Made by a program: the position numbers and the translations under genes
Notes under the pieces: generated by a model
What the model was told of the DNA's origin: nothing
The model's database searches: none
What the model saw: the letters and a program-made list of their open reading frames with translations, nothing else
NCBI GenBank assembly: GCA_029964075.1
Contig: CM057145.1
Location: 1,922,001-1,986,000, forward strand
Source of the DNA: Patiria pectinifera
Lineage: Eukaryota > Echinodermata > Asteroidea > Valvatida > Asterinidae
Direction: 5' to 3'
DNA length: 64,000 bases
Shown: positions 21,845 to 58,100 of the stretch, piece by piece
Layout of the letters: each line of letters starts with the position of its first letter
Numbering within the stretch: position 1 is the first letter of the stretch

Positions 21845-22333
21845 ATAAAGGGAATGTAAAACGTTCGCTTTTGCTGCAATTTTCATAATTAAATGGACTT
21901 GGAGGATTAGAATGCTATAGCAAATATTGTTAAAATGACTTGTTACACGTTTTGGGCTTGTAGATGCTGGAAAAACCAAGAAAACCTATCATGTTCGTGT
22001 AGTCTGGTTCCCTGACCCCAGTTAAGATGAAACTGATAGACTTTGGGGAAGTTTATGGTTAGAGAATGACAATTGCAGAGAAAATGCGGAATAACTAAAT
22101 ATGAAAAATTATGGGCATTTTTTGAAAAAAAGCCAGTTTTCTCCTACGCTGGTCGGCCGACCATGCGTTGGCAAAATACCATTTTTTTCTTGAAAATTGT
22201 CAACACAACAGGAGCCACAACTTTCCAAGATGCTTTAGACTTCCATTCCCTCAGAATCAAGTAAGGTATTTCGTGATAATTTGATTATTTCGTATTTTTT
22301 TGGTGTTTCCAAATGCTGTATCCTCACTTTAAG
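21845..22333 (+). repeat. Dispersed repeat I, copy 1
   Basis: Matches 42288-42806 along its length: TTTTGCTGCAATTTTCA, AAAACCAAGAAAA, GTAGTCTGGTTCCCTGAC, GCTGGTCGGCCGACCA. The ends are inverted relative to each other (AAAGGGAAT... and ...TCACTTTAAG). Confidence 0.72.
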
Positions 22334-22629
22334 TTGATGTGTGTCTCAAGCATCGTGGAGAGTTGTGACTAGTTTCCCCAATCTTCTGTTTTAAGTGGGC
22401 GTTATTATCACAAGTGTCTAAGGCATTTTTTTTTAATAGACTGCAGCCATTTTCGAGACGTTGGCCAAGTCCATGAGGTATTTTCATGGGCCCTCAAGTT
22501 GTTCGTCAGCCCCGAATTGTTCGTAGGCCCTAGGTACAGTGCCGACCCTGCCTACAGTTGTAAACACGTACATGTATGTACTCTTTTAATAACCATTTCT
22601 AAACACAAAATTGCCACTAACTTTTCAAA

Positions 22630-22920
22630 TCACCTCGTCAGTGGAAACTCCCACTTCGGTTTCACAACCTCACAAAGGCATCATTAGTGGGTCCAATCGA
22701 TATGACTTGTTTGTTTCCTTCTCAAGGTTAAAACACTGACAAGTACGTGTTTATTGTCAAGCTCTTTATATTTTGCTTCTAGATCACGTATATCATATAG
22801 GCCTGGCCAGAACTGCGAGCGCTCAATATGGCCGCGTTTTGGGTAATGTTGGCGGTCATGTTTGCCGCGGATTTGGTCGATATTGCTCAAGCAACATGTT
22901 CGCCGTGCAACCTTCCTTTA
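22630..22920 (+). pseudogene. Duplicated copy of the lectin gene's first exon and upstream flank
   Basis: From ~22630 the sequence parallels the region from ~23170: GTCAGTGGAA, CGGTTTCA, TTAGTGGGTCC, then a start codon at 22828. The frame reads MAAFWVMLAVMFAADLVDIA before Ala-Thr-Cys-Ser-Pro-Cys-Asn, against MAMLVMLAVVLTADLVDFA in the intact gene. Homology stops at about 22920, where a pogo-like MITE sits, and nothing after the MITE continues the lectin domain. It keeps a good signal peptide but only the first two lectin Cys, so it cannot make a lectin as it stands. It could also act as an alternative first exon if spliced onward, but no donor is obvious before the MITE. Confidence 0.75.
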
Positions 22921-22925
22921 AAATA

Positions 22926-23111
22926 CAGTCGAGTCTCGTTAATACAAACTTGTTCGGACCTAGCCAAATTCTTTGTTAGATCAGAATTTTGTATTAAGAG
23001 GAATATCAGTCCCATTCATTGTGCACATAAATGCACAGTCGGGACCAAGGCCTTATGTTTGTTAAAACCAGAATTTGTATTAACAGCGTTTGTACTAACG
23101 AGAGTCGACTG
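22926..23111. mobile_element. Pogo/Tc1-mariner-type MITE with TA target duplication
   Basis: The ends CAGTCGAGTCTCGTTAATAC and the inverse of GTACTAACGAGAGTCGACTG define a 186-bp element flanked by TA on both sides. The terminal pattern CAGTCGA-CTCGTTA is typical of pogo-like elements, known from memory. It disrupts the duplicated lectin exon. Confidence 0.82.
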
Positions 23112-23375: not shown

Positions 23376-23700
23376 ATGGCAATGTTGGTAATGCTGGCGG
23401 TCGTGCTTACCGCGGATTTGGTCGATTTTGCTCAAGCAGCTTGTTTGCCGTGCAATTTTCAATGGACGGAGAACAATGGCTCGTGCTACAGGTATTACAC
23501 CAATTCTCTGTCGTACACTGAAGCCAAGGCATTCTGTCAGCGTCTCAACTACCACGGTCAAAATGGCTCCCTCGCAACGGTAACAAGCCCTGATGACATC
23601 TTATTCATTTCGAAGTTCGCTGATGACATGTTCAAGTACGCGACTGGATTTGATGTGCCGTCATTCATTTGGCTAGAAACACATGCCATGAGCACCACGG
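23376..23700 (+). CDS. Lectin gene, exon 1 (signal peptide and first half of lectin domain)
   Basis: The start at 23376 is preferred over an in-frame ATG at 23313 because the hydrophobic signal (MLVMLAVVLTADLVDFAQA) follows directly and the upstream duplicate also begins here. Lectin features follow in order: CNFQW, GSCYRYYTNSLSYTEAKAFC, GSLATVTSPDD, and FIWLE in place of WIGL. The donor GG|GTAAGT is phase 1. Confidence 0.82.
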
Positions 23701-26700
23701 GTAAGTCTGTACACCATTATGAATCTTGTCATGACATTTTAAAATCAAATTTCATACAAGTAAATTTATAAAAATATCAAAAATCAATGGTAAAGAGAAG
23801 ACCGGGTAAAAATGACAAAATCTGGATGAAAACGTTTCATATTTAAAATGCACATCGATTGGATATTTTTTTTTACCCTCAAATCCTTTTGTGCTAATAT
23901 TACTTAAATGAACATGTGACCTTTAAAGACTTCCATCATAACTCCTGAAAACACGTTCAAACTACATGAACACGAAACGTCATCCGTCTTGAAATTTCTT
24001 ATACATTTTTATTGAACTTTTTTATATTGCAAAGGGCCCATGACATCATCTTACATGGGAACATTATTTTGTCCAACTTTCCACTCCCCTGAAATGTAGG
24101 AAAAATATTTCTTTTTGGTATTTTTTTAATTCAAAAATGCACGTTTTTCTTACACGTTTACAAATGTCCGTGCTTTCCTGACAGATGAGGGCGCTCTTGC
24201 TGTGATGTCATGTCAGGAAGACACTGTTTTATTCAAGGGTTTTCCATTCAAACTGTGAACTCAAAACTTGCTAATTGAAAACGTGTGAGACATTTGCTCA
24301 TTGGCTTAATGTCATGCACTGAAACAACAACGAATAACCAAAGCAAAGACAATTTTACGACTCACAGCAAAAGTATCCGCGATTCTGGCAAATGGTGGTG
24401 CTGTAAGTAGGTGTAACATTGAGGTTTCTGCCTGAAATGTCATCACACTTTTGCGCATGAATATTAATTCGCATTAGCATGAAAACCAAAGGGCACCAAA
24501 ACGGCCTTAAAAGTGCTAAATTGAATATTGAAAATCAGGTTAAACTGGACACAAACGTGTATTTTCAATGATTGCATAAAAATACATTACATGGGCATTG
24601 AAGTCACCTATCTATTATTTATCTTGACATCTACCATGGGTACCATGTATTCTGTATCTTTAAAAGACTGATTGATACCGAATGCATTTTTTTCCAGAAG
24701 TTAACATTGTTCATGTCTATGTTTCGATTTACGGCATTCAATGCAGTATATGCCCAAACGACAGTAATATTTTGCAATTAACACAGCCAAAAACATTTGA
24801 TTTCTGATCAGAATATCAGACCCTTACTATTTTAGAAGCTACAACAATCATCAACCCAGCATTATTTGTGTAGCGAATGAGTTGGCCTTTTACGAAGCAC
24901 AAAATGTTATTTTCCCTAGAAATCGCAACTGTCCAATTAAATACTTGGCTTTTCCCCTTTGTTGCGGAAAGCTGTTCTTTTTGTTCTGATTTTGTCTTTT
25001 CCGCATAGTTGCGAAAAAGCCTTTCTTTTTGCTCTGATTTTTTTTCTTTGTTCCTTTTGTTCCTTTTTTTCCCGCCCTTCACTTTTGGCATTCATCTTTA
25101 TTATACATCTTTCAAAGTTACCATAGTCATAGTCCTTATAGCAAAGATGTGTCTCGAAGAGTGAAGTCACGATGACGTTATAATGGGTAACGTGACGTCA
25201 CGTGTAGAACTTTTAGATTAAATCTTTGAAAAACAATATAAAATCACCCATTAAATACCCGAACTTGACTTTTGCGGGAATTGATACAAGTATCTAGGGT
25301 TTTTATTTTATCTCTCATATGAGCCAAATCACGTGACCCTTCCTTCCAGTCCAAAAAGGAAGTGCCTTATAATTTAAAGTTGGAAAAAGAGGTGAACTTG
25401 TTTTCAACGATGTTAGTTTCTGACTAGGTTGTACTTCACCCAAGAAATGCCGGCGACGTCAAAACATGCCGCCCTCTTGCGGCAGGTGGAAAAATGTTTA
25501 AAATGAATTATTAGTTGATGTGTGTGGCGAAGTTTGCTTAGATAACTTTATAATTGATGTATGTAGTCAGCTTCATGCTAAAAAAAAAACGGAGGGGAGA
25601 AAGATTCATGACGTCACCAGACCGGAAGTTAAAATAAAAAAAGACCTTTAATTTAAACCTTACATAATTGCTGAAAAATAAACCGCGAGAGATTCAATCC
25701 AGATTTTCGCTTCAAATAGCACAGTTAACATAGCTCTCGAGCTTTCTGGTATTGACGTCATGAGGACGTTAACAAGAATCAGATTACAAGCAACCAAAGA
25801 TTTCTAGATTGAATCTTTGAAAGTCAATATAAAATCAACTGTGAGAAATCTGGATATTATTTACAAGAAGTTTTAGAATAATGCAGAGTCTGTAGTGTTT
25901 GATATATATAATGTGCACAATCACGTGACCCTTTCTCCCGGTTGAAACCGAAAGTGTCTTGTAATTTGAAATTGGTAAAAGATGTGAACTTGCTTTGCCG
26001 TTTTGCGTTCAACTGGAAATGTCAAGTCGCCGTTGGGTCATGTGACGTCATAATGTCATCATGATGTAGTTAGGGGGTCATCAGACGTCATGTGTCATCA
26101 TGAGTCCTGTGACGTCGTCATGATGTCATGGGTCATGTAACGTCATCTTATCTGTGCATTTTCTAAGGACCCATAAAAATGCAAGACCTATTGGTTTGAA
26201 ACTTGGTATGAACATGTACAGGGATGTAATGCAGGTTAAAATTGAGGTGATGTCATGATTACGTCTTCATGGGTAATGTAAAGTCTCTTCAAAATGCATA
26301 CATCTAGAGAACTGCAAGGTTTACCAAGCAGCAAATCAGTCATGAAACTTTGTACTTGTATTAAAATTCATCATTTGCCTGACTGCACATGGACAAAATA
26401 AGCATGAACTCATACAAAACTCATTTCGCGGAAAAAACAAACGTATGTTCCGTCCATGTAACAGACATAACTCTATTTTGTTTCGTTCTGCTCCTTTTGT
26501 TCGCACTTTTTTTTCTGGCGTTCATCTTTGGCACGCATCCTTCAAAATTACCAAAGGCATTACAGTCCCTATATCAAGGATGTGTCCGAAGACCTCACCA
26601 TCATGGGTCACGCGACGTCACGTTAAAGAATTCTGGATTTAATCTTTGAAACTCAATATAAAATCTACCTGGACATGACTTTTGCGAGAATTGATAGAAT

Positions 26701-29700
26701 AATCCAGGATCTTCATTTTATCCCCTGAGCTAAATCACGTGACTCTTCTTTCCGGTCCAACCCGAAAATGCCTTATAATTTAAAATTGAAAAAAAATAAA
26801 TAAACCAAAAAGATGTGAACTTGCTTTCAACGATGTTAGTCTCTGGGGTCTCTGGCTAGGTTTCACTCCACAAACAAAATACCGGTGACGCCATAACATA
26901 AAACAGCGCCCTCTAGCGGCAGGTTGAACAATGTGTGAAACAAATAATCAGTTGATGTGTTTGGCAAAATTTGCTGAAATCACTTTGTATTTGATGTATA
27001 AACTCAGCTTCATGCTAAGAAAAAGTTGAGGCGGAGAAAGATTGATGACGTCATCAGACCAGAGGTTAAAACGGACCTTTAAACTTTAAACAAATGCTAA
27101 AAAAATCAACTTTGAATAGCACAGTCAACATAACTCTCAAGCTTACTGGTAATGACGTCACGATGACGTCAACAAATTTCAGATGACAAGCAACCAAAGA
27201 TTTCATGATTTAATCTTTGAAAATCAATATATATATATAATCAATTGTGAGTGCTATGATTTTGCTTTTTACGGAATGGATAAAATAATCCAGGGTCTTC
27301 ATTTTGGATATTACCTGCAAACTCACGTGACCCTTCCTTCTGGTTCAAACCGGAAGTGCCTTATAATATGAAAGTGGTAAAAGCTGTGAAATTGCTTTCA
27401 ACGATGTAAGTCTGCGGCAAGGGTGGGTTTTTCAAAAAATTGACTAGTGACGTCATGCATTATTCGAGGGCGCTATGGCGGCAGGTGATCACAGGTCTTG
27501 TGACGTAGTCTAAAAGATGAATTTTTAAAAATATACTTACAGAACCATAAGTCCAATTGGGTTGAAACGTTGTACACACATAGTCAGGGACGTGTTATTG
27601 TTAACAAAAATATGTTCCGTTCATCAAACAGACATAAGACTTCTTGTTTTTTCTTCTTTTTCTTCTTCTTTTTGTTCGCTTGCAAATCCCATACACTTTG
27701 TACACATTTTTCCGGCCGTCACTTTTGGCATTCATATTTGTCATACATTCTTCAAAGTAACAATAGGCAAAGTGCACATTTGTGTCCCGCAGAGTGACGT
27801 CATGATGACGTCATCATGTGTCATGAGACGTCAGCTTAAAAGTGCATATTTTAAAGTCCTATATCTAGAAAACTTTAAGTCCGATTGGGTTGAAACTCGT
27901 TTTGTACTCAGACCAATACGGGTGGCTTGGGTGGCTTGTGCGTAAAGCGCTCGCCTCTCACCAAGGTGACCACGGTTCGAATCCTGGCCGCGGATCACAT
28001 GTGAGTAGAGTTGTGCGTTGGTTCTCTCCTGTGCCACGAGGGTTTTTCTCCGGGCCCTCCGGTTTTCCTCCCTCCGGAAAAATCAAACACTTTCGATCTC
28101 AGGCTGTGCTCCGTGGTCATATATGGGTCGATGTGGCGCCGACCACGTTGTAGCCGCGTCCTTCGCAATTCAGCATACCAGCTGCGAGTAAGGATGATTA
28201 GCCTCCCAAATTATTATTATTATTATTATTATTATACCCCCAGCTGTACTTCCTTTGCCGGTGAGGGGGTACTTGTGAACGGAGCGGATAGTCGCACTGT
28301 GGTGTGTGTGAGTGTGAATGCGTGCAGGTGCAGTATGTACATGTGCAGAGTAAAAAAAAAAGAAGATGTACATGTGTATGTGGTTTACATCACTGGTTGA
28401 TCCCTTATTAGCGCAGACTTGATAGGTGTCATTAGCGCAAACTTGATATTATTATTACCAGGATGTGTTATAGGTAAAAATTGAGGTAACGTCGTCATGA
28501 CGTCATCGTGTGATTTTATATAGATTTTTGAAGTTTTAAAGATTGCCAAATGCCAAATCCGAAATTCTTTTTGTATTAAGTGTGTTATATGTATTAGGTA
28601 TATGCACAACATTTTTAAAAATGTCTGACGTCACGATGACGTCATCAAAATGCGATTTTTCAAAACACAGATATAGGTAAGTCCGATTGTCTTGAAATCT
28701 GGTCGGTAGGTAAATACTGCTTCTAATATGCAAATCCCGAGGTGACGTCTTCATGACGTCATTCGATATTAGTTGATTTTGTTCCTTTTTTAAATATTTA
28801 AAATTTTATTCCGCTTACAAAATTTTACACTTTCGTTCATCCGATTGACTTCAAACTTAGTACAAGCCAAGACCACAGTGTACAATATGCACTGACAAGT
28901 GTTGGTACGATGACGTCATCGCGGGGCATTTGACGTAATCATGAAAGTACATTTTTTCAAAATCTCGTATTGACAAAAACTAACGGTCTGATTGGGTCAA
29001 AATTGGGGAGATTTACCCAAAGTCACGATAAACATGACTTTTTCAATGTGATTTTTTTTATCACATTGACCTATTCGGCCTGTTCGGCTGCTGTATTGGG
29101 ATGCTTTAGTATAATTCCTTCTGACGATAATGCAAACTTTGGAAAGTAAAATCTGAGACATGACGAAGAATCCTCAACACTGTCAACAACAAACATGTGA
29201 TGACAATTTAACTGAATGGAACATTGTTCCTTTTTAAAATCCCAAAAAATGAATAATTGATACTTTTATACTATGTGAACATAAATAGAGCGTTTCTGAA
29301 ACATAATCAGAAAAAAAGGTCAAATGTCACTGACGATTTTAAATGCAGACTCTTGCTTAGTTGAGTATGGTAAGAATTGAATGACTTATGCTCACTTTAA
29401 CCGTGACAAACGTTATTGTATTATGAACTTCACTCATGAATAATAAGATATGTTGTTGATACACATATAAGGGTTGGATGGATCGTCATAAAACGTTGTG
29501 GGAAGTAAGATAATGTTATTAGTATGTACAATCCGAAGTGACGCCATAATGACGTAATCGGTTGCTTTTTTTTTTTTTTATAAATGTTCATATTCATTTG
29601 TTAAAAATGTTAAAACAAAAGGCAGAACAGCCCAGTGTTCTGTACATCAAACGGACAAAGACCTCTATTTTTTTTCCTGTGAAACATGCCCCTGTTAAAT

Positions 29701-32700
29701 TATCGACCCTATCGGTCGATCATGACGATGTCGTCGATCGCGCTGCCACCAGTTTAACATCTTTTCTTACTTATTCGCGGCTCTGGAAGATTCAAAGGTA
29801 CTAAGTAAAGTCCGAGATATCCTACAGAATCGACCAATCGCGCAACGCAATCCACCGATCGCGCATATCGACCGATTGCGGCCAACAGCCCAACCGAAGA
29901 CTGTTTTACAGGATGATCTAGCGTCCGCGTAAACATGGGTCCCTTAATTACTTTGAGGATGAAACAGCAAATGAAGTTTTGCCTGGGACACAATTCTTGC
30001 CAACTCTAAGCCCATCTCGTTTTACTCGGGTTTATATTTCAGTTTCAGACTTTAAACCAATTCTGGACCAACCCTTCGGCCAAATGAGTGACGTCACTCC
30101 GTGCGAGAATAACCAAGTGGTGGATAACGAGGCGTATCAAGTGGTGGGGACTGCTCAAATGGTTCCTGGCCCAGGACTAGTGGAACAGCCATGCGCAGTG
30201 CACGCACCACTTGGGTCCTACTTAGATCTCGGAGACTTTGCAGGGAGTTGTGTCTCAGACCCTGGACTGTGTGAGTCTGAAAGTGTGACCTGGTCCATTT
30301 GGTTGAAAATCGACACGCCGGTGTCTGTGAACAAAAACAACTGGTATTACTTGAGCTCTGGGGGACAGACTGGTCGAGCCAGAGGAATAGCTTTCATGTA
30401 TAAAAAGGACTCTCAGAAATTCCTGATCACGGCAAAGTCCGAACAATTTAGGGTCCATCGTAGATATGACAAAAGTAAGATACCGCTTGACGAGTGGTTC
30501 CACCTCGCATTCACGGCGGACTTGTCAGACACGCGGGGCACAGACTTGCAAGTATTTGTCAATGGGGAGAAGGTCAATGCGGACGTGACGGAGAACCAAT
30601 CTACAACTCAATCGGACGGATGCACTCATCTTTACATCGGCATGTCAAATACATGTCCTGGCACATACTCCGTTGACACCTACGGTGGCTCTGCGGCATA
30701 CAGCAATCTGGTTGTGTTTGACGGTCTTCTGAGCTCACAACAGATAACAAACCTGTACCAGTGTGGATCTATAGGTACGTATACCTTTTAATACCTGAAA
30801 TTGATACATTTGTGGAATTTAATAAAATATTACCGGGAAATGTATCCGATGTGCAATTTCTGTCGACAAACAAAATCAAGGTTAGCCTTCTTGTGAAAGA
30901 TGTTGATAAGTTGTTGTTTGTTATTGTTGTTGTTGGTGCTGATGTCTGGTGGTTGTGTTGTTGCTGTTATGCTGTTGTTATCACTGTTGTTTTTGTTGTT
31001 GCTGCTTTTGCTGATGTTACTTTTGCTGCTGTGGTGGTTGTTGTGGTTGCTGTTGTTTTTGGTGGTTGTGGTGGCTGTTGTGGTCGTGGTGGTTGTGCTG
31101 GTGGTAGTGGTGGCGGTGGTAGTTGTAATCGTTATGGTGCTGTTGGATGTGGCTGCTGCAGTTGCTTTTGTGGTGGTTATTTTGGTGTTGGCTATTGTGC
31201 TTTGCGGTGGGTTGGTGTTGTTTGCACTTCATGAGTTTTGTATTTTTGCTTGTTTTATCTTTGTGTAGATTGGCGCCCTAGGATCATCAACTTCACAATG
31301 ACCCACTACGACATCACTGACAGCGCAATCCGTTTTAACTGCACGGCCGACGGTGACGTCATCACCTGGAGTGTACTCCACGAAAACAACCACAACAACA
31401 TTAGTTGGGAGAATTTGGCAACCACAGGGGGAGCCGGCTACACAATTCAAGCAGTGAATGCTTCTAGATGCGTCATTCACTCGACTCTTGTGATTTACCG
31501 CAACCACGGTTTGCCGCTTGAGGGCGCTTTAGTGGCCTGCACGACCCATTCGTATCGTCTACGCGACAAGGCGTCTATGTTCATCTATAAAGGTATTCCA
31601 CATAATGAGCTTACGGACAACTTTTTCACTAATTCATTTTCAGTAAGCATCAAGTCGCCTATAAGCATTCTGTTTCTTATATAATTCAGATTGACAAACT
31701 GTTTAATGTGGATAACCAGGTGAAAAAGTTTCATTTCCTATTGATATGCGTTATGCACAATTTGTTTTAGGACCGAAAGTTCTAAGAAGGTCTGGTAATT
31801 TCAGACTCATTTTGAAGGGTTGGTTTTATGGTATTTCATAAAGAAAGCCAAATACCTAGATTATTACTGTGTTAACACGTAGTATTTTTTGTTGTGTTTT
31901 TCCTGATTCATGTCTTCATATTGCTTTTAGCTCTTGTTGTTTTTCGTCACAATTCGTAATTTTTACTGTAATTTTAGCCAGTTTTTAACTTATATCACAA
32001 AATCAACTATATCATTACAAAGTATCATTCTTGCCCTTTCTTGAGAACTAGATTTTCGCCTTCAAAAAATGCTGCTTGACCGGTAAGAGTAATTCACAGG
32101 CCTACAACTCACTCTTATTATTTGAAAAAGGCGCCAGATTCAAGTATTTTAGTTTGTGTATTATTACTTCAAACTGAAGATAATCCTCAAATTTCACTGT
32201 TCCTATTTTTGAGGAAAGTGGCCATTTTTGATGAACTGCCTAAATAGGATACAATCCCCAAGCTTTTCTCACCAGATATTGAAAAACTAATGTTGGCTCT
32301 CATTATATCCTGAATGAAAAAATTCTGAGACTCCTGGCAAGTTGAACTTTTGAGGGACAAAAATAGTGTAAAAATTACAATTTTGCAAGTTCTAAAAACG
32401 TGCTTTAACGCATGTTCTAGAAATCGCATAAGGGTGACATTTTCAACAATTATTGTTTGTTCTCAAGTAGGGGCAAGGATGATACTTTGTAATTATAAAG
32501 TTGAATTTGTGATATAATTTTGCATTATGGCGATTTTTTAAAAATAAGTAAAAAAGAAGAAGACTTTTTGAAGCCCTAAAACTGGCAAACAAATGCCCCC
32601 CCCCCGCCCAAAAAAAAAATGAAGTTCTATTTTTGGTTTCTTGCTCATTAAGTCCTTTCATATTAAAAAAAAAAAATGCCGAGGACACTTATATAAAATA

Positions 32701-34150
32701 TTTACGTGGACCCACATTAAAAGCTGTTAATGACAAAGCCAAACCGGTAACGAAGCCGAGCTTTGAAAAAGGGCCATCATGTGTATTTTCAGCCCACTGG
32801 CGGTTACCTGACCTACAATTTAGACGTCAGGGTGTCAGGGAATTGTCAGGTCAGGGAACCAGACTAGTGAATACGCCGTAGGCGGGGTTACGTCATAAAC
32901 CGCCGAGGTCACGCGTTGCCGAAGTCAGGCGTTCCACATAAACCCTGACCTTACGTATAGCGATAGCAAGGGGCCCATTTTCATCAAATTTTCATCCGTT
33001 TGGAAGTAAAAATAACGGGCATCTGTCACGTTCTTAGTGATGAATACAGTCAGCTACGAAGCACTGTGCCATTTTCCCAGCCTTATTTTGTTCTTAATGT
33101 CTGGGATATCTCAACTAGAAAATGTTAACCTAAACCGCCCAATTAAAATGGCGGACGAGATATTGTGTGGAACGATCCCTATTGGAGACGACCCCGCGTG
33201 AATTATTCATGTAAATTTGAAAAACCCAGAATCCCAAATGATGTCAAATTTTGACAATTCTATTTTCATGTTTTAAATTCTATTTTTATTTGAAGGCAAA
33301 CAAGTGAATATCGGAACAAGCGACCATGGTTCTATCGGTAAGTGTGATTCCGTGTGTTTACTCTCACATCGACAGAATGATCATCAGTTGTTTTGTAAAT
33401 TACTAGAGGGATGCCGCGCTTTGCCCGGCACCCGCTAGCAGGATGGAGTCATATACTAATGTTTACTGTAACCTCAGTTGGCATGTTGACCCAAGTGGGC
33501 GTGGTAATTCCTTGGTGAATCAATTTTTATCCCATTTCTCATCATCAATGTTGTGTTTACCAATACGTTTCAGTATGATCTGTTTGATTTTTTGTGAGAG
33601 AAATTGTGTTATTTTCCTCCTTCCTTCCCCTTTATTGACGTGGGTATGGTCCGCTACACATGCAGCGATTTCACTGTCCTCTGAAGTCACAGTTGGCACG
33701 TGAAAAAAAATGTATTGATTTGTTTTGTTTTGCTTAGACGGCAAATTTGGTGTTTTTTTTTACTACAACATAACCTCTGTGAAAACACACCGAAATGTAT
33801 TGCACGGCCATTATGGTTCAACAGTTTGAGGTTGTCGCAACGCTCTTTATCTACGGCTCTGGTCTAAATGTATGCACAGCGCCACCAAGTGTCAGAAACC
33901 CCGGTAACAAAATCCTTGGAACATTTCCAAGCCAAGTTGCTACTTTACTCAATCGGCTTTCCTCCTTTTTCAACTGAACGTCGCAGGTCTTTCCTTGCGG
34001 GAAGTAGGAAACCATGAAGCCCAGTTCATAATCCAAGATGGCGACTACTCTGACACGTATTGCGACTCGGCGCATCCTACCACCGCATCAAACATCGGTG
34101 AATCTTGCTCAGAGGATCAACAAAATCATCCCTTTATTTGCCAGATGTAA
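23376..34150 (+). CDS. C-type lectin gene with LamG-like and Ig-like exons placed between the lectin halves
   Basis: Exons 23376-23700, 30049-30774, 31269-31592, 33296-33337 and 33987-34150. All internal joins are phase 1. Joining all five gives 527 codons including stop. Skipping the LamG and Ig exons gives 177 codons, a usual size for a small secreted lectin. The first exon holds a signal peptide and the first half of a C-type lectin domain through the WIGL-like FIWLE. The last exon holds the closing Cys pattern ending FICQM. The middle exons are a complete LamG/concanavalin-like module (~242 residues) and an Ig-like module (~108 residues). Which combination is used cannot be seen from DNA. 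No EPN, QPD or WND sugar-binding motif is evident, so calcium-dependent sugar binding is doubtful. A poly(A) signal follows at 34372. Confidence 0.68.
24030..24615 (+). repeat. Dispersed repeat G, copy 2
   Basis: Same family as 12395-12965: AAAGGGCCCATGACAT at the left, then AGATGAGGGCGCTCTTGCTG and TCATTGGCTTAATGTCATG. It lies in the intron after the first lectin exon. Confidence 0.75.
25080..28960 (+). repeat. Long degenerate tandem array rich in TGACGTCA
   Basis: Blocks recur every ~0.6-1.4 kb: CACTTTTGGCATTCATCTTT (25079, variants at 26511 and 27719), TTTAATCTTTGAAA followed by CAATATAAAATC (25218, 25812, 26638, 27209), ATCACGTGACCCTT (25330, 25920, 26734), CGGAAGTGCCTTATAAT and a CCCTCTTGCGGCAGGT segment. 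At least a dozen perfect TGACGTCA palindromes occur, some in pairs. No coding frame persists between units. A SINE sits inside it at 27917-28235. Confidence 0.75.
27917..28235 (+). mobile_element. tRNA-derived SINE with (ATT)n tail, copy 1
   Basis: A-box-like GGCTTGTGCGTAAAGCGC near 27936 and a perfect B box GGTTCGAATCC at 27974. The body contains GAGGGTTTTTCTCCGGGC and GATCTCAGGCTGTGCTCCGT and ends in AGCCTCCCAAATTATTATT. An inverted second copy is at 41045-41370. Confidence 0.88.
28961..30042. other. Intron before the LamG exon
   Basis: Mostly AT-rich unrecognised DNA. Around 29700-29890 there are repeated, partly inverted CGACCGATCGCG-like phrases (ATCGGTCGATCATGACGAT, CCGATCGCGCATATCGACCG), perhaps a small degraded foldback. 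No missing lectin segment was found here. Confidence 0.4.
30049..30774 (+). CDS. Lectin gene, LamG/concanavalin A-like exon
   Basis: A single 242-codon exon, phase 1-1. It shows the jelly-roll signature of LamG/pentraxin-like modules: GSYLDLGDFAG, ESVTWSIWLK, WYYLSSGGQTGRARGIAFMY, EWFHLAFTAD, LQVFVNGEKV, LYIGMSN and YSNLVVFDGLLSSQQITNLY. A pair of tandem acceptors, TTTCAG at 30037-30042 and again at 30043-30048, allows a two-residue NAGNAG-like choice in the same phase. An open frame runs back to 29979, but it has no signal peptide, so this is not a first exon. Confidence 0.85.
30900..31225 (+). repeat. Trinucleotide repeat (GTT/GCT/GGT)n
   Basis: About 325 bases of interrupted GTT, GCT and GGT triplets with strong strand asymmetry (G+T on the + strand). 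The open frames it creates (poly-Val/Leu, Gly/Cys or, on the other strand, His/Asn/Gln) are artefacts. It ends ~40 bases before the Ig-exon acceptor. Confidence 0.9.
31269..31592 (+). CDS. Lectin gene, Ig-like exon
   Basis: A 108-codon exon, phase 1-1, after TTTGTGTAG. It has the Ig pattern IRFNC, then ITWSV ten residues on, and LVACTT near the end, giving the Cys-Trp-Cys core. Sequons NFT, NCT, NIS and NAS are present. It follows a long trinucleotide repeat that fills much of the preceding intron. Confidence 0.78.
31593..33295. other. Intron between the Ig exon and the microexon
   Basis: Mostly AT-rich with no exon accepted. It holds a C-run near 32597, an A-run near 32665 and a short AGTCTGGTTCCC-type foldback end at ~32790-32872. 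Confidence 0.5.
32790..32872. repeat. AGTCTGGTTCCCTGACC-type terminus
   Basis: GGCGGTTACCTGACCTACAA and then GTCAGGTCAGGGAACCAGAC match the right end of the 15746-17090 element. No matching left end lies within a few kb. Confidence 0.65.
33296..33337 (+). CDS. Lectin gene, 14-codon microexon
   Basis: GKQVNIGTSDHGSI, phase 1-1, between a T-rich tract ending GAAG and the donor CG|GTAAGT. It would fill part of the loop between the FIWLE strand and the terminal lectin segment. Because it is so short its reality rests on splice sites and phase only. Confidence 0.45.
33987..34150 (+). CDS. Lectin gene, terminal exon (end of lectin domain)
   Basis: The phase-1 acceptor after CTTTCCTCCTTTTTCAACTG...CGCAG opens a frame of 54 codons ending TAA. 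The Cys spacing C-x14-C-x10-C, closing with FICQM and stop, matches the end of C-type lectin domains (C...C....FIC). The usual W-N-D before the penultimate Cys is not seen. Confidence 0.66.
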
Positions 34151-41044: not shown

Positions 41045-41370
41045 TGTGATAATAATAATATTTTGGGAGGCTAATCATCCTTACTCGCAGCTGGGATGCT
41101 GAATTGCGAAGGATGCGGCTACAACGTGGTCGGGCCGCTGGCACGTGAAGGCGCCTATGGCTGCCGGCCACATCCACCCATATATGACCACGGAGCACAG
41201 CCTGAGATCAAAAGTGTTTGATTTTGCCAGAGGGAGGAAAACCGGAGGGCCCGGAGAAAAACCCTCGTGGCACAGGAGAGAACCAACGCACAACTCTACT
41301 CACATGTGATCCGCGGCCAGGATTCGAACCGTGATCACCTTGGTGAGAGGCGAACGCTTTACGCACAAGC
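41045..41370 (-). mobile_element. tRNA-derived SINE with (ATT)n tail, copy 2 (inverted)
   Basis: The inverse complement of the 27917-28235 SINE: AATAATAATA tail, GGAGGCTAATCATCCTTACT, ACGGAGCACAGCCTGAGATC, CCCGGAGAAAAACCCTCG, and the inverse B box GGATTCGAACC. It has about 45 extra bases near 41130-41170 relative to copy 1. Confidence 0.88.
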
Positions 41371-41407
41371 AACCCATTCACCTCTCAACAAAAGAGGTTC
41401 ACATCAA

Positions 41408-46100: not shown

Positions 46101-49100
46101 GAGTGAGTTGTCGATCTGTCCGTTATTGGCCGTCGCGTCGCCGTGAAGCACTTCTCTGATAGTTTCACTCTCAATGACGGAGTTGACAGGGAATCGGGCC
46201 ACACCGTTCACCAACAAACTCCCGTCACGAAAAGAGGTCACTTCATAGTCCACTACATTGGATGTCCTAGGTGACCTGCGGAGGGCTGCAATCACCTATT
46301 GAGTAGAGAAGCACCGTCAAGCAAGAGTACAACATTACAAAACATCAAATTATGCATCTTCAGAAAGAAAATCACAGCTACTTAGCCTCTAATGAACAAT
46401 AAATGTAGGAATAGCATGTGACCTATCCCCCCAAAAATATTTGCTTCAAATTAAAATTGCCATGTTGCAGTAAAGTTAAAGCTAATAATGTACTAACCAA
46501 CGGATAATGTTTCACCAACCTATAATGTATCACAAATTGACCGATGATTAATGTATAGTAACCGATAATGTAACAAAGATTGACTGATAGTGTAATGAAT
46601 TAAGGTACTTTATCAGTCATTTTTGTTAGATTATCGGTTGGAACCAATAATGTAATACCAATTGACTGATAGTGTAGTATATTTTACCACCTTTTCGGTA
46701 TTATTTTGTTACATAATCGGTTAGTGATACAATATCGGTCAAGTCTAGTGATACGTTATCTGTTGGTTCAATGCAAAAACTGTGGTAATAATTTAACTGG
46801 TATCTATATAGGATATACAACACAAATTTAAATTTAGCACCAGATGGTCTGTATAGATATATTTAATTTTTTTAACTGCAGTTTTTTGCAGTGTTAAAGT
46901 TATATCAGTTAGCAAGTACAGTAAGCAAGGCCAGCATTTTGAAGGAGTGGGTCTTTCATCCCATTTCATTGGTTGACTGTTTATTCATTGTCACACAACT
47001 TCAGACCTGCGGGATTTTCGAATGCCATTTCTCGATTAACAGCTTTACTACTTCAAGTAAGTTGGTGGTTTGTTTTTCCGTTACTGCAGTTGGTACCCTT
47101 AAATGTTATGTACATATCATTGGAAAGCTCCTGTTCGGCAGAATGCAAATAAATAAATCTCTCAATTCAGGGATTTACCACAGTGCGTGCCCAAGAGTTA
47201 ATATAATTTGTTTATAAGGCGGCAGAACTCTATGCACCTACTATAACAAATTAGCTCAATTTGTCTACTGACACTCATTCAACTGGGCCATGTTTTGTCG
47301 ACCGTAAACTAGATAAAAGGGACTCGACATGGCAAACTCTTTGTGGCGCACTGCATATTGTAGATCGCCCGAATTTGGATAAAAATCTGACTTAAGCTCA
47401 TTTTGTGATGACGGTTATGACACATCCAGCAGAGCACAGCACTTGACAAATCGTGAAATTTGCGGCAACAGATTTATAAATATTGGCCAGAAAGGACTTC
47501 TGTCATAAATATACATTGGACCATTTTACTTGGGGGAAATTAACCAAATGTGTTACAAATCAAAACCATGTTTGATCAATGTTGTTGTTATACTGAATAA
47601 TTAGTTTATAATACTAATACAAAGCTGTATTGTTTACTTACTGCATTGCGAACACATACTGCTCGTTCACGGAATAGTTGCGAGGTACTGTCCCTGAGTT
47701 GTTCATTGAAAACCGCAGGCTGACCGCACAGTTCAAGAACCAGTAACTGTGTGCCGAACTGCAAGAGACCTGTTACAGCAAAATATATCCGGCTATTTAC
47801 ACAGTAACTCTCAAGTAACTCTGTGCCGAACTCCGACAGCCCTGTTTGGACTAGAGAACATGCGGACTATTGAACCTTCGGACTACCGGGCGGACAACAT
47901 TTACGACTACCCTGGTTTGACCTGGTTAGAGAAGATGGCTTAGTGTCGTACCTCCAGAAGCTGACGTTACGCTGAGAGTTGACAACTCCCCGAGTGGTGC
48001 TCCTGCTGTGGATAGTCCATCACTTGTTAAAGTGTGCGCCGTTGTTGGCAGCTGACCCGGCAGACCGGTTGTGGCAAGCTGATCGACCGGTGGGTCTGTT
48101 GAAGGGGATGCTTGGCTGGTGGTGTCGATTGGTGATCCTGTGGTTTGTTCAATCAATTGATGAGTTGCGGATACCCCAACAGTGGATTCTGGTCTAGTGG
48201 ATGCTTGGTCGACGAACACATCCGTTGTTGCCATCCCACCTTCTTGGTCAGTAGTGGATTGCTGGATTGTTGCCTCGGCAGTGGGAGTTTGGTTGATCGA
48301 GGACTCTGTTGTTGTAATCCCACTCTCTTGGTCAGTAGTGGATTGCTCGACTGTTGCTTCTGCAGTGGAAGTTTGGTCGGTCGAGGCCTCCGTTGTTGCC
48401 ACATCGCTCCTTTGGTCAGTAGTGGATAGCTGGATAGTCGTTACTTCTGTGGTTGGTGTTTCTTCTGTAATAACGTTAATGTAAATATGTCGGTTTTTTT
48501 TGTTAAAACTTGTAGTCATACAAGACCATACAGACCAAATTTGGCTGAATTTTACAGAAATTCTAACCAAACCAACATCAACCCAATTTCGAGTTAATTG
48601 CAGTTTTCAACCTTTTTGGGGTAAATGAGCCAAGGCAATTTTTCAGTGTAAAGACCCATTACATATTTCTGATTACATATGAATGTCAATATGTTTTTCT
48701 GATATGAGATTGTAACACTCCTTGAAAAATGGCAACATTTTAAATAAGGGTTCTGCTTATTACCTATTGGAATAAATTTGAAAAAAAAAAATTGTTTGAA
48801 GTCATTGTTAATTATACTTGAATGGTTAATTACAAAATACCAACACCCACGTAACACCAGACCTTCATTGTTACAACTTGCTGAACCTCAAGAAACCCCC
48901 TTTTTAAGTGGGCCTATGGGAAGCAAAACACCAAACAGTGCCAACAAAAACAGAAACGAAAAGTATACCTTCGACCAATGCTATTCCCACGTCATCGATT
49001 GCGATATCTGACAGAGCCGTCGGGCCACGAACTGCTTGGAAAGCTATTCTGAAGCTTGACGTCACTTCCGACAGAACCTCGTGCTGGATCCAGCTGGGGT

Positions 49101-52100
49101 CACCTAGCCCTCCGCCGGAAGTGAAGAGAAGGTCGCCCTCGGATAAACTCCCATTTTCTGGGGTTTTGAAGACATCTAAACGACCTGCAAATTTCAATGA
49201 TGAAGTCAAAATGCAAAGCGAACATTAATCTAAAAAAAAAAGGTGACATAATTCGGCCGTTTTAAAATGCATTGCGCCACCAAGAGTTTGCCACGGAGAG
49301 TCTATTTTTTTGTAGGTTTACAGTCGGCAAACCATGGCCCATTTGAATGCGTGTCAGTAGAAAGCTTGGCTAATTTGTTATTGATTGGGGCATAGCGTTT
49401 TGTCACCTTACTAAAACACCATATTGACAAAAAGAAAAGAAAAGTACAAACAGATACTCGAATCATACGCTTACGAAACTACTGACCGGAAAAAGCATGA
49501 ACACTTTCAAATGTCCCTCGCTGCAAATTTGTCGACCGTCTCCCACAATGCACTAGGAAAAATGAACTGTCCATGACAAACTCTTGGTGGCGCACTGCAT
49601 TGTGAAACGCCCGAACTTTAATGGTATATTGCTGTGGTATGATTAAAGGGTAGATTCGAAGGAGTTGTCACACTATATTATTCTTCAAGGAAACAGAAAC
49701 AACTTCTTTGCGGCAAACAACCATGTAGAGCAAAGAGAGCTTCCCAAAGGTTCTGTAGCGACACGTAATTAAAATATTTTTGTCCGTTTGGCTGACCATA
49801 CTTGCGTTGTACTTTGGAGACACATGTCGCTGCACAAACAAACGCACATGTATGTACAAATCGCCATCTTTGTCATCGTTGCATTCAGAAGAGTTAGTAC
49901 GTCAATTTCATAAATTTTTCATCATTTTTCATCGTGTTATACTGTATATATTTTCGTCATTGTCTTTAGTAAATATTTTCACCCATTTCGTCTTTGTCAA
50001 CTGTACATAACTGTTTGTCTCCGTGAGTGTTATTTCTGCCATATTCGACGGGAATAAAACCCGAGCTGTGATTCACCGAACGCACGGCTCCGACCAGGTC
50101 GCGGTGCACCGCCATCGGACTATACCACGCTGCAGCCCTCGATCATCGGACAGGCGTAGACATCAGTCATCAGAGGTGAGTCGATGTTGGCAGTTAACCT
50201 TAGATACCCCACCGTTTTTAATGGTAAAGGGGGGTCTCAGTGAAGGCGTGCCTTCCTGCCCTGCTTGTGGGGTCCAGGGCATGCCCCCGATTTTTTGAAA
50301 TCTACCAAAACCTTCTCCCATTCTAAGGCAATCCGAGAATGAAATTAGGAACTCTAGCATTCCAGGTTTTATTTGTTGGCCCCATTTTCTGTATCATAAC
50401 AGTAGTCAGCTGTTGGACGGGGATGAAGGGGAAGGGGGGGGGGGCTGGTTCTACATCCGCTACCGATATAGAACCTATCACCTGCTAAATATGAAAGGGA
50501 ATGAAAGATATTCCTACCTAGTCCACTGCCGTACATGTGATACCAGAAGCTGAAGGTCACGTTGCCAGTATGTGTCACAACAGGACTAAGTAAGACAGCG
50601 GTATCCCCCTCAGAGGAAAAGTTCCCGTCTAAGTAGAGATAGGATCCACCTAATTCCACAAAATGACCAATGGAAAGGAATTTAACGATGTGCGCAATGT
50701 CCACAATTCTGGTGTTTAACAATGCAGTGCGCCCACCAAGACTTTGCCACGAAGAGTCCATTTTTAATTTTACGGTCAACAAAACACGGTGAATTTGAAT
50801 GAGTATCAGTAGTGAACATCAGCTGAAATGTTAGGGATTGGGGAATAGCGTTCTGCAGCCTTACAAAAACACCATATTGATAAACTTAAAGAAAAGGGCA
50901 AACAGATGCTTGAACCACGCTAACAAAACTACTGACCGGCAAAGCTAACAACTTTCAAATGTCACGCACTGCGAATTTGTCAACCTTCTCCCTCAATGCA
51001 TTGGGACAAAAATGCACTCTCCGTGGCAAACTCTTGGTAGCGCATTGCATTGTGAATTGGTTTGATCGAATTTAGATCCACTATTTGGTTGGTATTAAAA
51101 ATACCATATTTCACAAAATATGGAAAATGTCTTAAATACGAAAATCTGGTATAATACAGTTTCTTCGTCCCGCCTCAATCATTAGATTGATATTTTGTTT
51201 ATAAAGGCGTACTTTTTAACAGTATTTGTGTCGACTTGAGCCTATTTTTTATCGGTTGGGTCACATAGGCTTAATTAGTATAATGACGGAGTCGGGACGA
51301 AGTGATTACAATATTAGGGGGGGAGGGAGGGGGAGGGGCTTGGGCTGGTACCATTTTCCAAAATAGGGGGCGCTCTTCAAAACCGGCCATTGTGCGCAAA
51401 CTACGCATTGTGTGCCCATTTTCAAGGCTTATTGTAAGGGTTTTGGGGCTTTCATCTTCCTCGTTCATATCAGAACTCTCTATTAATGATGTGCATCGGG
51501 TCAGGTTGACAAGGCCAAACCGAACCGACATGTTAGAGATATAAACCGAATCTGAACCGAAACCGATCTTAACTCCCTTAAACCGACCCGACCCGACCCA
51601 ACAAAAAAATACGGTAAAACGGACCCGAACCAGACCCGACCCGACCCGGAAAAAACCCGAATATTTGGCTGGGACTAAGTGATCACTTTTTTGTGCCTGT
51701 CCTTATCCACGTGGCATGAATTCTTTTGCAAAAACATCGTCTCTCTCTCTCATACTCAGTGGGTTGATATGATCGAGAAAAAAATCCGCTTATTGAACTA
51801 AATTAAAACTAATCTTACTTCCAGTAGTGTGATCAGATTCAGGTCCAGTGCCAGCTGTGACGGTATCTCCAATCTCCATGAGCCAGTTCGTATCATCGTT
51901 TTGCGACTGCAACCATCCACATAACGAACCTTCTTCAAAAGTGCAGTTAAAGTTTGTATCTCCTGTGAATAAAAAGAAGATAAATGCAGCGTAAAGCCCG
52001 GTTCATACTTCACGCGAAAGCATGTGCGAAGCGAAATTCATGTCGTCAACAATGGTGGACGCGCTCCGAATGTATTGTTGACGTCACGCTTTCGCGTGAA

Positions 52101-55100
52101 GTATGAACCGGGCTTCAGTAAAAAAAAAACTAAAAAAAAACACCCAAATGTCGGGACCATTGTTTTAGTGAAGTTCTGTATGTGGCACTTTCCAAATCTA
52201 GGATATAAACGCCGAATGCATAAGCTTTTTTTGAGAACCAGAAACACAAACATTGAAGTGTTCTTTTCAGCAAAACGAACACAAATCACATTCAGATGTG
52301 TGTGAATTGTTATCGTTTTGCTGAAAGAACGCACACTTGATCACTGTGATCCGTGGATCAAACTTTAAAACGGTGGTTGTGTTTACAATTCCGTGGGATG
52401 TAAATAAGTGATTTGAATGATTTTTGTACTAAAGTAAAGCACATGAACTGGGCTTTTATTTCCTAGATTTCAAAAGTGCTTCATACAGAACCTCACTAAA
52501 ACAATAGTGCCGACATTTGAGTTTCGTTGTGTTTCTACCCATCCTGTATATCTGTTTGATATGTTTCAACAACTACGATCAACGCATACGTGAGATACAC
52601 TTTTCGTCGAGATATGACGATATTCTTAAGTTCGCTTAATACCATATGGCTTGTTGCCAAATGGAGCCACGGTAAGGAAGAGGCGTCGATATTAAGTTCC
52701 AAGAGGAGCCCACGGTAGTGAAAAGGTTAACACAGCTAGATTTCCTCTTTCCCCGTTGCAGAAATTGTTTTCCAGCTTAACTCAATTTAATTTAATTATA
52801 AAATCTGCCGCACTTAAAATAAATAATTATGTTCCTCCGAATGTGCTATCAGAGATCAGTAGTCGTGTACCAAGCAATTAAAATACACAAATACAAAACA
52901 AGGACTTCAAAACTTCAAAAAATGTTAAGGAATATATAAAACGAAACAACGTGTATCAAATCAATATCTCAATATCGTTATTTTCATTATACAAACAAAT
53001 CCCAGCACGATCTAAAAGTTGGACACACAAAAATGAGGCAGTTAACTCAATATTCTATGGTTCATTGTGGCTTAAGCAGCCTTATTTTTGATTTTCTTGG
53101 CTAAGCAAAATAAATTGGGTATAACTTTGCTTGTAAAACCAGGGTATATAGCCAAACTGCCGTTCAGTTTCACAAGCCCAGGGAATACAACATTGTGTCT
53201 TGCGGCAAACCTTGGGGCCACCTTTACAGGTTGGATAAATTATTTGAAGCCAATACTATGGCCTCAAATCGATTAAATCAAATCATATGAGTCAAATAAT
53301 GTATTTCTTACTTTCACACAAACCCATCCGCAGGTTGATGTCATCGATCGCTATATCACCATCAAGTCCTCCGTTGCTTGTTGCTTTGAAGTAAAAACTA
53401 ACATGAGAAGTTACACTTCCAATGTCGACCAGCCCATGAAGCCATCCCCTCCTTCCTGTCTGTCCCCCTCTCGCGCCGAAAACCTCCATGGTGCTGTTGT
53501 ACGCATACGCCTGAAGCACACCTTGAAAATATAATAGTTAAGTATTTGATTGACGTACAACGAGTAAAGTATATGGTGCTTAAAGAGGTTGTGGAATGCT
53601 CGAAGACATTTCCGTCATTGTTTGGGTATATGTAGCCTAAGGTGTGATGAAATAAAAACGACTATTGTTTCTCGAACGTGCAATTTGTGTAAACGTCGTC
53701 GTTGCGGGCAGCAAAACAAAAACAGTAAAATCGTGACGTGACTCGTTGCTGCCCGCAACGACGACTTTTACAATAAATTGCACTCGAAACATTAATGTTG
53801 TCGTTTCTCTGGTTTATAAAGCTTAACGCATGTCTTGCCTGTTCACATTTTATGTGAACGTATTCGCACCAAACATAGACAGGTCTAGTCACAGACGCCC
53901 GTGTTTGGTTTTATATAATATTCGTTAATACCTCAGACGATTTACCCATTATAATTGGAAGAGAGCCCGTCACGTGGCCGGTTTTAAACGGTTGACAAGG
54001 ACATGGCTGGCTGGTCCTTAACACTTGTCCAGTGTCACATGAATTGTTGACTCCTATAAAATCAGGTGCTAGCATCGTTTTGTGCATTGGTTGAACGTTC
54101 ACAATCCTCACGTAGGCATGTGAAACACTACTAGTGAGTCAACATTTCATTGCACTACATTTTAATGTTTTTACTCGAATTCTCCATTAAGAACCTGTTC
54201 ATGTGCTATTACTCGTACTTGTACTCAGAGGCACAAGTACTCAGACTCGGCTTTACAGAATGTGCACTTGAAGGTCGAATAATAATAATAATAATAATAC
54301 TAACACGATTTATAGCGCGCATTTTCGCAAGTATCAATGCGCAACTAAGAATAACTCCAGAAGACAAGTTACAGGTTATGTGGAGAGAACAGATCAGTTT
54401 TCAGTCTGCCCTTTAAGTTGTCAAGAGAACTGATGTTGCGGATGTTGTGTGACAAGGAATTCCAGCATCGGGGACCAGACACTGAGAAGGCCCTGTCCCC
54501 TGCCTTTTTGAATGTGCGTGGAACTCTAAGGTTGTTACTGGAGCGGAGGCCACTACGGCTGGGTGCATTAAGGTTGAGTGATTCCATTATGTACTGCGGC
54601 ATTGTGTTATGCAGTGCTTTGTGCATGAAAACTGCTGTTTTGAAGTTGATGCGTTGTCTAACTGGTAACCAATGTAATTGTTGAAGGAGTGGAGAGGCAT
54701 GTGTGTATTTGGTCGAAGTACTTGGACTAGGGTACTGTACTCGTTCTCAGTGGACAAAGTACTCAGATGTTCGTGGTACTACTTGGTAGTTCGGTACTCG
54801 GCAGTATTTGGATAAAGATACTCGACTACAACACTACCAATGTGCCCCACCCATCTTAAAGCAGGCACCTAAATGTCCCTTCAAATTGGATCACAGTTAC
54901 GCTACCTGTATTCAAGCGATGCCCTCAAAATGGAATAAACAAAGAAGATTGGTATATTACCTATATATCGCCCGTACATGCTGTACCAGAAACTAAGGCA
55001 AAAGTCTACTCCATCCTCCTCGTTAACTTCCACCACAGGACTGTCAATTATGGGCGTGTCGTTCCGAGTCGAAACCTTAAAGTAAAGATACCTTCCGGTT

Positions 55101-58100
55101 TCCTCTATAGCAGGATGAAAATGAAAAAAAAAACAGATGTAAGTTAATTGGAATAGGAATTTGTTTTGTCTTTCGAAGTTGCAAATTGTATTTACTCATA
55201 TCACAGACATTTATAAACCTAAATATGTTGAAGATTGAAACACATGAAATAAAGGAGGTACAAGTCAGTGTTCATTATGTTAAACTCTGAACACAGTTTG
55301 TACAGAGCACAGCGCGTCTCAAAATACCCTTCACTTTTTTTTTCTTTTCTTTTTGCGAGGCTCTAGCGTCGCCGTGGAAATACGTACCGCCATTATTTTT
55401 ACATAATGTTTAAAGCTTGGAATCTTAACTTAATCCCTGATTCATAAATACCTCAGACAGTTTAGCTATTCCTATTGGTCGAGAGCCCGTCACGTGGCCG
55501 GTCTTAAACGGATGATAAAGACATGGCTAGCTGGTCTTAAACACTTTTTCAGTGTCACATAAAATGTTGACTCCTAAAAATCCAGTGCTTCTTACCGTTT
55601 CATTGGTTGAACGTTCACAATCCTCACGTAGGCATGCGCAACACTACCAGCGCGCGAGTCAAAATTTTATAGTTCTAAATTCAAAACGCAACGCCCCAGG
55701 TGCGTTCTGCGCGACATCGCGTCCATGTCGCGCAGAACATGCTACGCGCGCGTCAATCTCCACAAAAGGGTTGTTTACATCTTACTCGCCAGCTGAATAT
55801 TCCATTATTTTTCTAGAGGGATGTTTCAAAAAGCATGAAGTGAACTTGCTGAACAAAATCAGGATTTTTTGAACGAATTGTTTGATCTTTTTTTTACCGA
55901 AAAGGTATTTATGAATGGGAATAAATGTGTGCTCGGTCGGTATTTATCACTATGTTTAATACACTATGTTTAATACCATGGCTGCTGATAATTACCCTCG
56001 CCTCCGGCTCGGGTAATTATCAGCAGCCAGACTCTAAGTGGTATTAAACAGAGTGATAAAAACCTCCGGAGCACACGTTTATTCCCTTATTAAAATTAGT
56101 TTAATTTTCAAAAGGGTTTATAAATTATTCGTGTTCAAATAAAGGCATGTCAAACACAAACTCAACAGATTTCAAGGAGAATCAATCATGCGCACTTTCT
56201 GGTTCATCACGTTCATGATGTGACAATCAAGTTGCCTTTTACTTTCTGTGTTTCCTATTCTTTTTGATCCACTTAGACTTCACCTTAGATGAAGTCACAA
56301 TATTTTCCTTCGTTTCAGCTTCATTGTGCAGCTGTTTACCTATTCAAAAATAGTGCTCGAAGTGTAATGCATCATCAACTTTCCTTGAAATTGGTTTAGT
56401 TTGTTTTCCACATGCATCCGCATGAACACTTTTAATACAATTCTTTGAAATATCAAACTAATACTACCGAGGGTTAAAGTTCGGATTGCAATCTTTAAAA
56501 TAATATACAAAATAATGGCAATACGTGTTTCCGCGTTGACGCTAGAACCTCAGAATAACAAGTTGTGGGTATTTCGAAACGCACTGAAGAAGGGTGTGTA
56601 TAAAAAAATGCAAACAAAATATTATACAAGTAATGAATGTTTGTGAGTGCAATGGAAAGAATAATTTCATGAGGTGACAGATGAAATGTTACATTTCACG
56701 AGGCGAAGCCGAGTGGAATGGAACATTTCATCTGTCACCGAATGAAATTATTCTTTCTATTGCACAAACGTAAAACATTCATTATTTGTTTTATATAACA
56801 CCTGAATAAATCCTCGTCATCTGATTGGTTGACTTTTAATAGCCAATTTATTCATTGGCTTACAAGTTTGACAAGTTCCGAGTTATCATATTATGCATAC
56901 TGTTCAAAAGGTTGAGAACTTAAATATTCAATTTATCTCACCTTAAAACTTTTCCATAAGTTTAGAACTCAAACAGTTCAATAAGTTCAGAACTTTTATT
57001 GCCAATTTAAACACCACAGCGCCACCATCGGCAACATGTGCAGTGACAGTGCAATAGTACTTCTAATCACAGTGCAATAGTACTACCATTGCACTGTGGC
57101 GCGCGCCCTGCGTTGGTACGAATAATTCAATGACACGTGATCAACGGTCCACCAATCAGATGACGGAGATTTATTCAGGTGTTGTATAAAACGGAATGTC
57201 AGATGTAGATTGTGCAACCAACACATGTAATATAGGTATGCCTTGAAACATACGTCTTTTCACTTTAAAATGGGAAATCAAACGTTTACATCTGATATTT
57301 TTGGACAGAACTTATGAGTAATTTTCATAGAGAGGTCGAATTGGCCATGGAACCGTATTTTTAACTCTTTGTGGATTACTCGTTGTGGATTATTTCTTGG
57401 GACACACAAAATGTGTTAAGCGAGTAAACACAATTCTAAACACTTTTTGCTATTAGTATGTAAACATGTTCAAATGCTAAATATTCTTAGCATGAGGTGA
57501 TAGCAAGAAGGTGTTTAGAATTGTCATTTACTCGCTAAACACACGTTTTTGTGGGCAAGGCAAATATCCACACAGGGGCAATTAGGCTTGTCCCAATACC
57601 TAAAATTTAAAAGTTGGTCCCATGGTCAATTGACTTCTCGTGTTGGAAAATTACTCATAACTCTGGCATACAAAATCGGATTTGGACATTTGATGTCTCA
57701 TTTTAAAGTGGAAAGGCGTATTTTTTTAACCATACCTATGGTATATATGTTGGGTACACATTTTACATCTTGCATTCCACTATGTTGTTTGCATGTTGTT
57801 TGAGACACACTGTATAGATATGACGTACCTCCTAAAGTGTGATCGACATCAGGACCAGTCTCGGAGGTGGGTGTGCTGCCTGCTCCCAGTAGCCAGTTAC
57901 CGCCGTCACCCTCACGCTGGGTCCAGCCGCAATACCCATCCTCAAAGGAACAGTTGAATGGTCTGTTGTCTTGAATGCAATGGGCAGGTAATACGGAATA
58001 ACATTCATATGTGGAGTAGTCCACTCAAGTTATTGAAACGGAGGGTTTTCCCCTTTAATGTTTTTTTGCAAAAAAAGTCAAGTATACGTTGGTTTGTGTG

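Follow-up and report, generated by a model that had tools for sequence, protein, structure and literature searches.

The stretch of DNA analysed here, a window of 64,000 nucleotides of Patiria pectinifera (CM057145.1:1922001-1986000; this contig is referred to as C17 below), was found to contain five exons on the forward strand that can be joined into one open reading frame. Coordinates of exons are given as window positions. The first exon, e1 (23376..23700, 325 nt), starts with the ATG at 23376, ends FIWLETHAMSTT and is followed by a phase 1 donor, 23700|gtaagt. It encodes a hydrophobic, signal-peptide-like N-terminus and then the N-terminal half of a C-type lectin-like domain. The second exon, e2 (30049..30774; 726 nt or 242 codons, phase 1-1), for which a second in-phase acceptor is present at 30043, encodes a LamG or concanavalin-A-like domain, and e3 (31269..31592; 324 nt or 108 codons, phase 1-1) encodes a domain that we tentatively regard as Ig-like. 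A short exon, e4 (33296..33337; 42 nt or 14 codons, phase 1-1), has splice sites that are shared by the paralogues. The last exon, e5 (33987..34150), ends HPFICQM followed by a TAA stop and carries candidate strands 3-5 of the lectin-like fold.

Inspection of the splice sites and translation of the spliced exons gave 526 codons with phase 1 at every junction, and 176 residues for e1+e4+e5 without e2 and e3; the junctions, the phases and both totals thus agreed with the original prediction. The same exons recur in the same order in paralogues, indicating that the set is more than a chance association. We consider it probable that the window holds one five-exon gene of a multi-copy family, the predicted product of which, approximately 525 residues long, would have a lectin fold interrupted by LamG and Ig domains. 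Upstream of this gene and on the same strand lies a truncated duplicate (22327..22914) of its 5' region and of approximately the first 28 codons of e1, with an ATG at 22828 after which the frame departs. This duplicate was matched in the e1 search at window positions 22834-23004 with an E value of 9.6e-4.

The description of e1 as a signal-peptide-like N-terminus followed by the start of a lectin was borne out. When e1 was compared to the PDB, C-type lectins were matched with E values down to 3.7e-6, and a score of 34.2 bits was obtained against a lectin model made from eight domains of the same genome (eight lectin ORFs, several of them near-identical C1 copies). The score against Pfam Lectin_C was 15.7 bits, under the cut-off of 22.6. 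The motifs C..W....CYRY, FCQ/YCQ and WL were invariant in six aligned sequences, and the cysteine pair of the long form, the helix-1 cysteine and a WIGL-like strand were all present. Over 19 residues, Kyte-Doolittle values of 1.69-2.52 were obtained at the N-terminus and none above 1.11 elsewhere in the product, which is thus probably secreted.

Lectin_C matches in this genome occurred in clusters on C1, C6, C12, C14, C21 and C22 and numbered at least 150 (all of the 150 that were scored from a list of 1413 candidates). Outside the family, e1 was most closely related to the single-exon lectin-like proteins of the C22 cluster, such as L001, which have, like e1, a hydrophobic leader and an N-terminus of the form C-x-C-x-x-x-W...CYRY...C. 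When e1 was aligned with single-exon lectins of the genome, it ended a few residues past the strand that carries WIGL. The C22 lectins differ in that the whole domain is contained in one frame of approximately 160-190 amino acids with no inserted domains, and L001 has both EPN and WND. In contrast, a string search found EPN, QPD and exact WND absent from e1+e4+e5 in all seven intact members of the family, and the usual Ca2+ sugar site is therefore not expected.

The LamG-like label given to the 242-codon exon was upheld: e2 scored 50.8 bits against Pfam Laminin_G_3 (cut-off 27.6) and spanned model positions 8-150 of 151. The exon resembles other LamG and pentraxin-like domains of the Laminin_G_3 kind, and differs in lying here on one phase 1-1 exon between two parts of a lectin. 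Its score against Pentaxin was 14.8 bits, under the cut-off of 25, and its three PDB matches, the best with an E value of 0.23, were not informative. The Ig-like label of the 108-codon exon stood in part. Thirteen of the 16 PDB matches of e3 were nanobody, VHH, antibody or Roundabout chains and a C...W...C pattern is conserved, but the best E value was 0.09 and no Pfam match was obtained. These matches suggest that e3 may adopt an Ig fold. Single-sequence structure models were of no use for either exon, with a mean pLDDT of 42.9 for e3 and 34.7 for e2.

When the 613.5 Mb assembly was searched with each exon separately, e2 was found at 14 places (three on C17, two on C18, one on C1004, six on C20 and two on C250) and e5 at 13 (three on C17, one each on C18 and C1004, six on C20 and two on C250). 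In the same orientation, e5 lay downstream of e2 at 13 of the 14 places, the exception being a copy at 17.4 Mb on C18 that ends within e3, and e1 lay upstream at 11 of the 14. Two of the places without e1 are 2.4-3.2 kb from a contig end. At 24.10 Mb on C20, the nearest e1 lay 50 kb upstream, beyond two copies in reverse orientation.

Seven copies were intact from e1 to e5, namely the window gene (W) and copy A on C17 and copies F, G, H, J and K on C20. They comprised 522-529 codons including the stop, had no internal stop, and had GT/AG and phase 1 at all junctions; e4 was recognisable across copies with its splice sites kept. As F and G are nearly identical, and J and K likewise, the seven represent fewer than seven independent lineages. 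The other copies were excluded: B (C17, 2.02 Mb) for a frame break in e2 and a TGA in e3, C (C18, 17.4 Mb) for its end within e3, D (C18, 18.0 Mb) for broken e2 and e3, E (C1004) for an e1 absent from the contig and a frame-shifted e5, I (C20, 24.10 Mb) for doubtful pairing with e1, M (C250, 3-5 kb) for an e1 not found at the contig end, and N (C250, 11-17 kb) for several stops. Copies C and E have equal LamG scores and could be one gene represented on two contigs. In copy F, the intron between e2 and e3 (L041:3855-6746) contains ORFs that look retrotransposon-like by eye.

The original prediction had named three ways in which the middle exons could have come to lie between the lectin parts, namely a nested gene with its own start, alternatively spliced cassettes and a true domain insertion. 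A LamG-Ig gene nested in or adjoining the lectin gene and never spliced to it would fit the length of intron 1, which is 6.3 kb in the window gene and 14.6 kb in copy A. It was contradicted by the presence of e5 downstream of nearly every LamG exon, which shows that the LamG and Ig exons do not make up a gene of their own, by the conservation of exon order and phase across the family, and by the e1-e2 introns of F and G, where only 193 and 194 nt separate the two exons. Moreover, e2 starts mid-codon after its acceptor in seven of seven intact copies, and we regard two separate genes as highly improbable. The second possibility, that e2 and e3 are cassettes and that both a 176-residue lectin-like form and the 526-residue form are made, draws on the phase 1 of all exons, owing to which any exon skip keeps the frame. 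However, phase 1-1 exons are also expected from module shuffling. The 176-residue form was no better a lectin according to Pfam (19.7 bits, below the cut-off), and no copy with e1 and e5 that lacked e2 and e3 was present among the matches listed. Alternative splicing of this kind thus appears improbable, if less so than two genes. A true domain insertion was the best supported of the three, with closure of the lectin fold by e5 as its conjectural part.

A standard middle lectin exon elsewhere in the transcript, which would have spoken against the prediction, was not found in a scan of the window ORFs with the lectin model. In that scan (six-frame ORFs of at least 20 amino acids), only e1 was obtained at an E value below 1, and the ORF of e5 appeared at 8.9. 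In copy H, the e2-e3, e3-e4 and e4-e5 introns are 345 nt, 234 nt and 116 nt long, respectively. Introns as short as those of F, G and H could hardly accommodate an overlooked lectin exon.

Nei-Gojobori counts over all exons gave dN/dS of 0.53 for W-A, 0.64 for F-H, 0.48 for F-J, 0.51 for H-J, 0.70 for F-G and 0.87 for J-K. W and A are similar in their introns as well, and taken alone this pair is therefore a poor guide to constraint. For W-F and W-K, dS was infinite (saturated) in e1-e4, and amino acid identity was 35% and 39% in e1, 41% and 47% in e2, 34% and 31% in e3, and 27% and 39% in e5, respectively. The saturation of dS across groups, together with identities of 31-47% in e1-e3, indicates that the arrangement is old and that its frames are constrained. 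The last exon changed fast, the ratio of nonsynonymous to synonymous changes in e5 being 9:1 in J-K (L048 compared to L049) and 7:1 in F-H, both from small numbers of changes. This rapid change could reflect relaxed constraint.

The claim that the last exon ends a lectin was supported by short motifs but not by whole-domain scores, which were below significance both in Pfam and in the lectin-model scan of the window. The Lectin_C score of the window gene was 20.9 bits for e1+e5, 19.3 bits for e1 with reversed e5 and 19.7 bits for e1+e4+e5, all of them, like that of e1 alone, under the cut-off. For copy F it was 14.6 bits both with and without e4+e5, and no Lectin_C match was obtained in Pfam for K or for the 526-residue form. 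Because the score with reversed e5 was almost as high, Pfam was rejected as proof of a lectin e5. The own-genome lectin model was rejected likewise, as it did not tell real e5 apart from shuffled e5: e5 added at most 1.4 bits in the seven members, a gain equalled by shuffled e5 in 8 to 145 of 300 trials, and in five of the seven the alignment stopped within e1.

The motif [HY]PFIC was found in all 11 e5 copies read (W, A, B, D, E, F, G, H, I, J and K) of the 13 e5 places, and was kept although e5 identity between W and F is so low. In the 86,662 amino acids of six-frame window ORFs, PF[IV]C occurred a single time, in e5. In a profile comparison, the end of e5 aligned with the last strand of lectin domains from the genome, with a score reached by none of 100 column shuffles in the C17 group and by one of 100 in the C20 group. 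In e5 of the C17 group, the FIC segment is preceded by a WND-C-like segment. The score of the two segments in this order was reached by 0, 1 and 0 of 5000 shuffles in W, B and D, and by 3, 3 and 5 of 5000 in F, H and K, respectively (p of at most 0.001 in six members, themselves related to one another). The WND-like segment alone was not significant in the C20 group (p 0.14-0.19).

These motifs bear on the reading that competes most closely with the one that we prefer, namely that there is one gene, but that e1 is a truncated lectin fragment serving as leader or dimerising module and e4-e5 an unrelated C-terminal tail, so that the fold is unclosed and the LamG and Ig domains do the work. Such a tail would agree with the lack of any Pfam match for e5 alone, with profile scores barely above those of reversed or shuffled e5, and with the position of e5 as the fastest-diverging exon. 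It would also agree with the e5 of the C20 group, which has only 38 residues and a single cysteine, that of PFIC, and lacks the two middle cysteines. An unrelated tail would not be expected to keep [HY]PFIC in every copy read and in register with the last lectin strand, nor WND-like and FIC segments in order. Moreover, the e1 cysteine expected to partner that of PFIC lies in FCQ/YCQ and is thus invariant in the six aligned rows, and the PFIC cysteine is the very one that the C20 group has retained in e5. We hold the unrelated tail to be unlikely, though clearly less so than either cassettes or two genes. Judged from the motifs, e5 likely closes the lectin fold begun by e1, and a cysteine pair may be formed between the two exons.

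In C-type lectin domains, the long loop emerges from the core after strand 2. If the preferred reading is correct, e1 would supply the N-terminal half of the fold as far as the WIGL-like strand, e2 and e3 would contribute the LamG and Ig-like domains, and e4 and e5 would re-enter the fold, which the last strand and the PFIC cysteine would close. The inserted domains would then project from the point at which the long loop normally exits the core, and would take the place of that loop. WIGL has been assigned to strand 2 and WND to strand 4; no part of the domain varies more than the long loop, for which an evolution independent of the remainder has been proposed (PMC7618208). The phase 1-1 structure of e2, e3 and e4 fits a phase-1 intron downstream of WIGL, and the arrangement likely originated by the shuffling of such modules into that intron. 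The LamG or the Ig domain may bind a ligand, with the lectin core as a base, and from the domains alone our guess for the function is a secreted recognition or matrix protein. We propose, tentatively and with more doubt than for the gene itself, that the lectin fold serves as a holder and not as a binding site, with its long loop replaced by LamG and Ig domains, and that the copies of the gene form a family of secreted recognition proteins whose last exon changes rapidly.

Fish antifreeze-protein-like lectin genes and salmon serum lectins also have an intron downstream of WIGL, but what the introns divide there is an ordinary lectin domain, and nothing is described between its parts in the available text of that source (PMC514892). 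Multidomain proteins such as the predicted Fugu DEC-205-FUSE likewise combine C-type lectin-like domains with other extracellular modules, but there, as far as the same text goes, the modules lie between whole lectin domains, whereas here they lie inside one (PMC514892). LamG and Ig domains inside a C-type lectin domain were not found described in the titles and abstracts searched, which came from a collection with few subscription papers. The arrangement belongs to an already known broader kind, the multidomain C-type lectin-like proteins. If true, whole domains at the place of the long loop would show how far the tolerance of this loop goes and would be an example of domain nesting via exon shuffling. 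The family lends itself readily to testing, since some of the intact paralogues have short introns.

Other features were observed in the window. A 210-nt element is present in inverted copies that are 97% identical, one in intron 1 (27928-28137) and one downstream of the gene (41167-41376). It carries what we take to be a tRNA-like B box and is perhaps a SINE. On the minus strand, a MAM-domain gene occupies positions 47929-59060, with exons scoring 36.2, 28.9 and 27.2 bits, above the cut-off of 26.4, and another scoring 19.2 bits, below it; a Thr/Ser-rich stretch of this gene is encoded by an 84-nt tandem repeat at 48196-48447. A tRNA-like sequence at 60087-60162, also on the minus strand, scored 40 bits in Rfam, was given an odd two-base anticodon by ARAGORN and lies near repeat family D16; it may be a pseudogene or repeat-derived.
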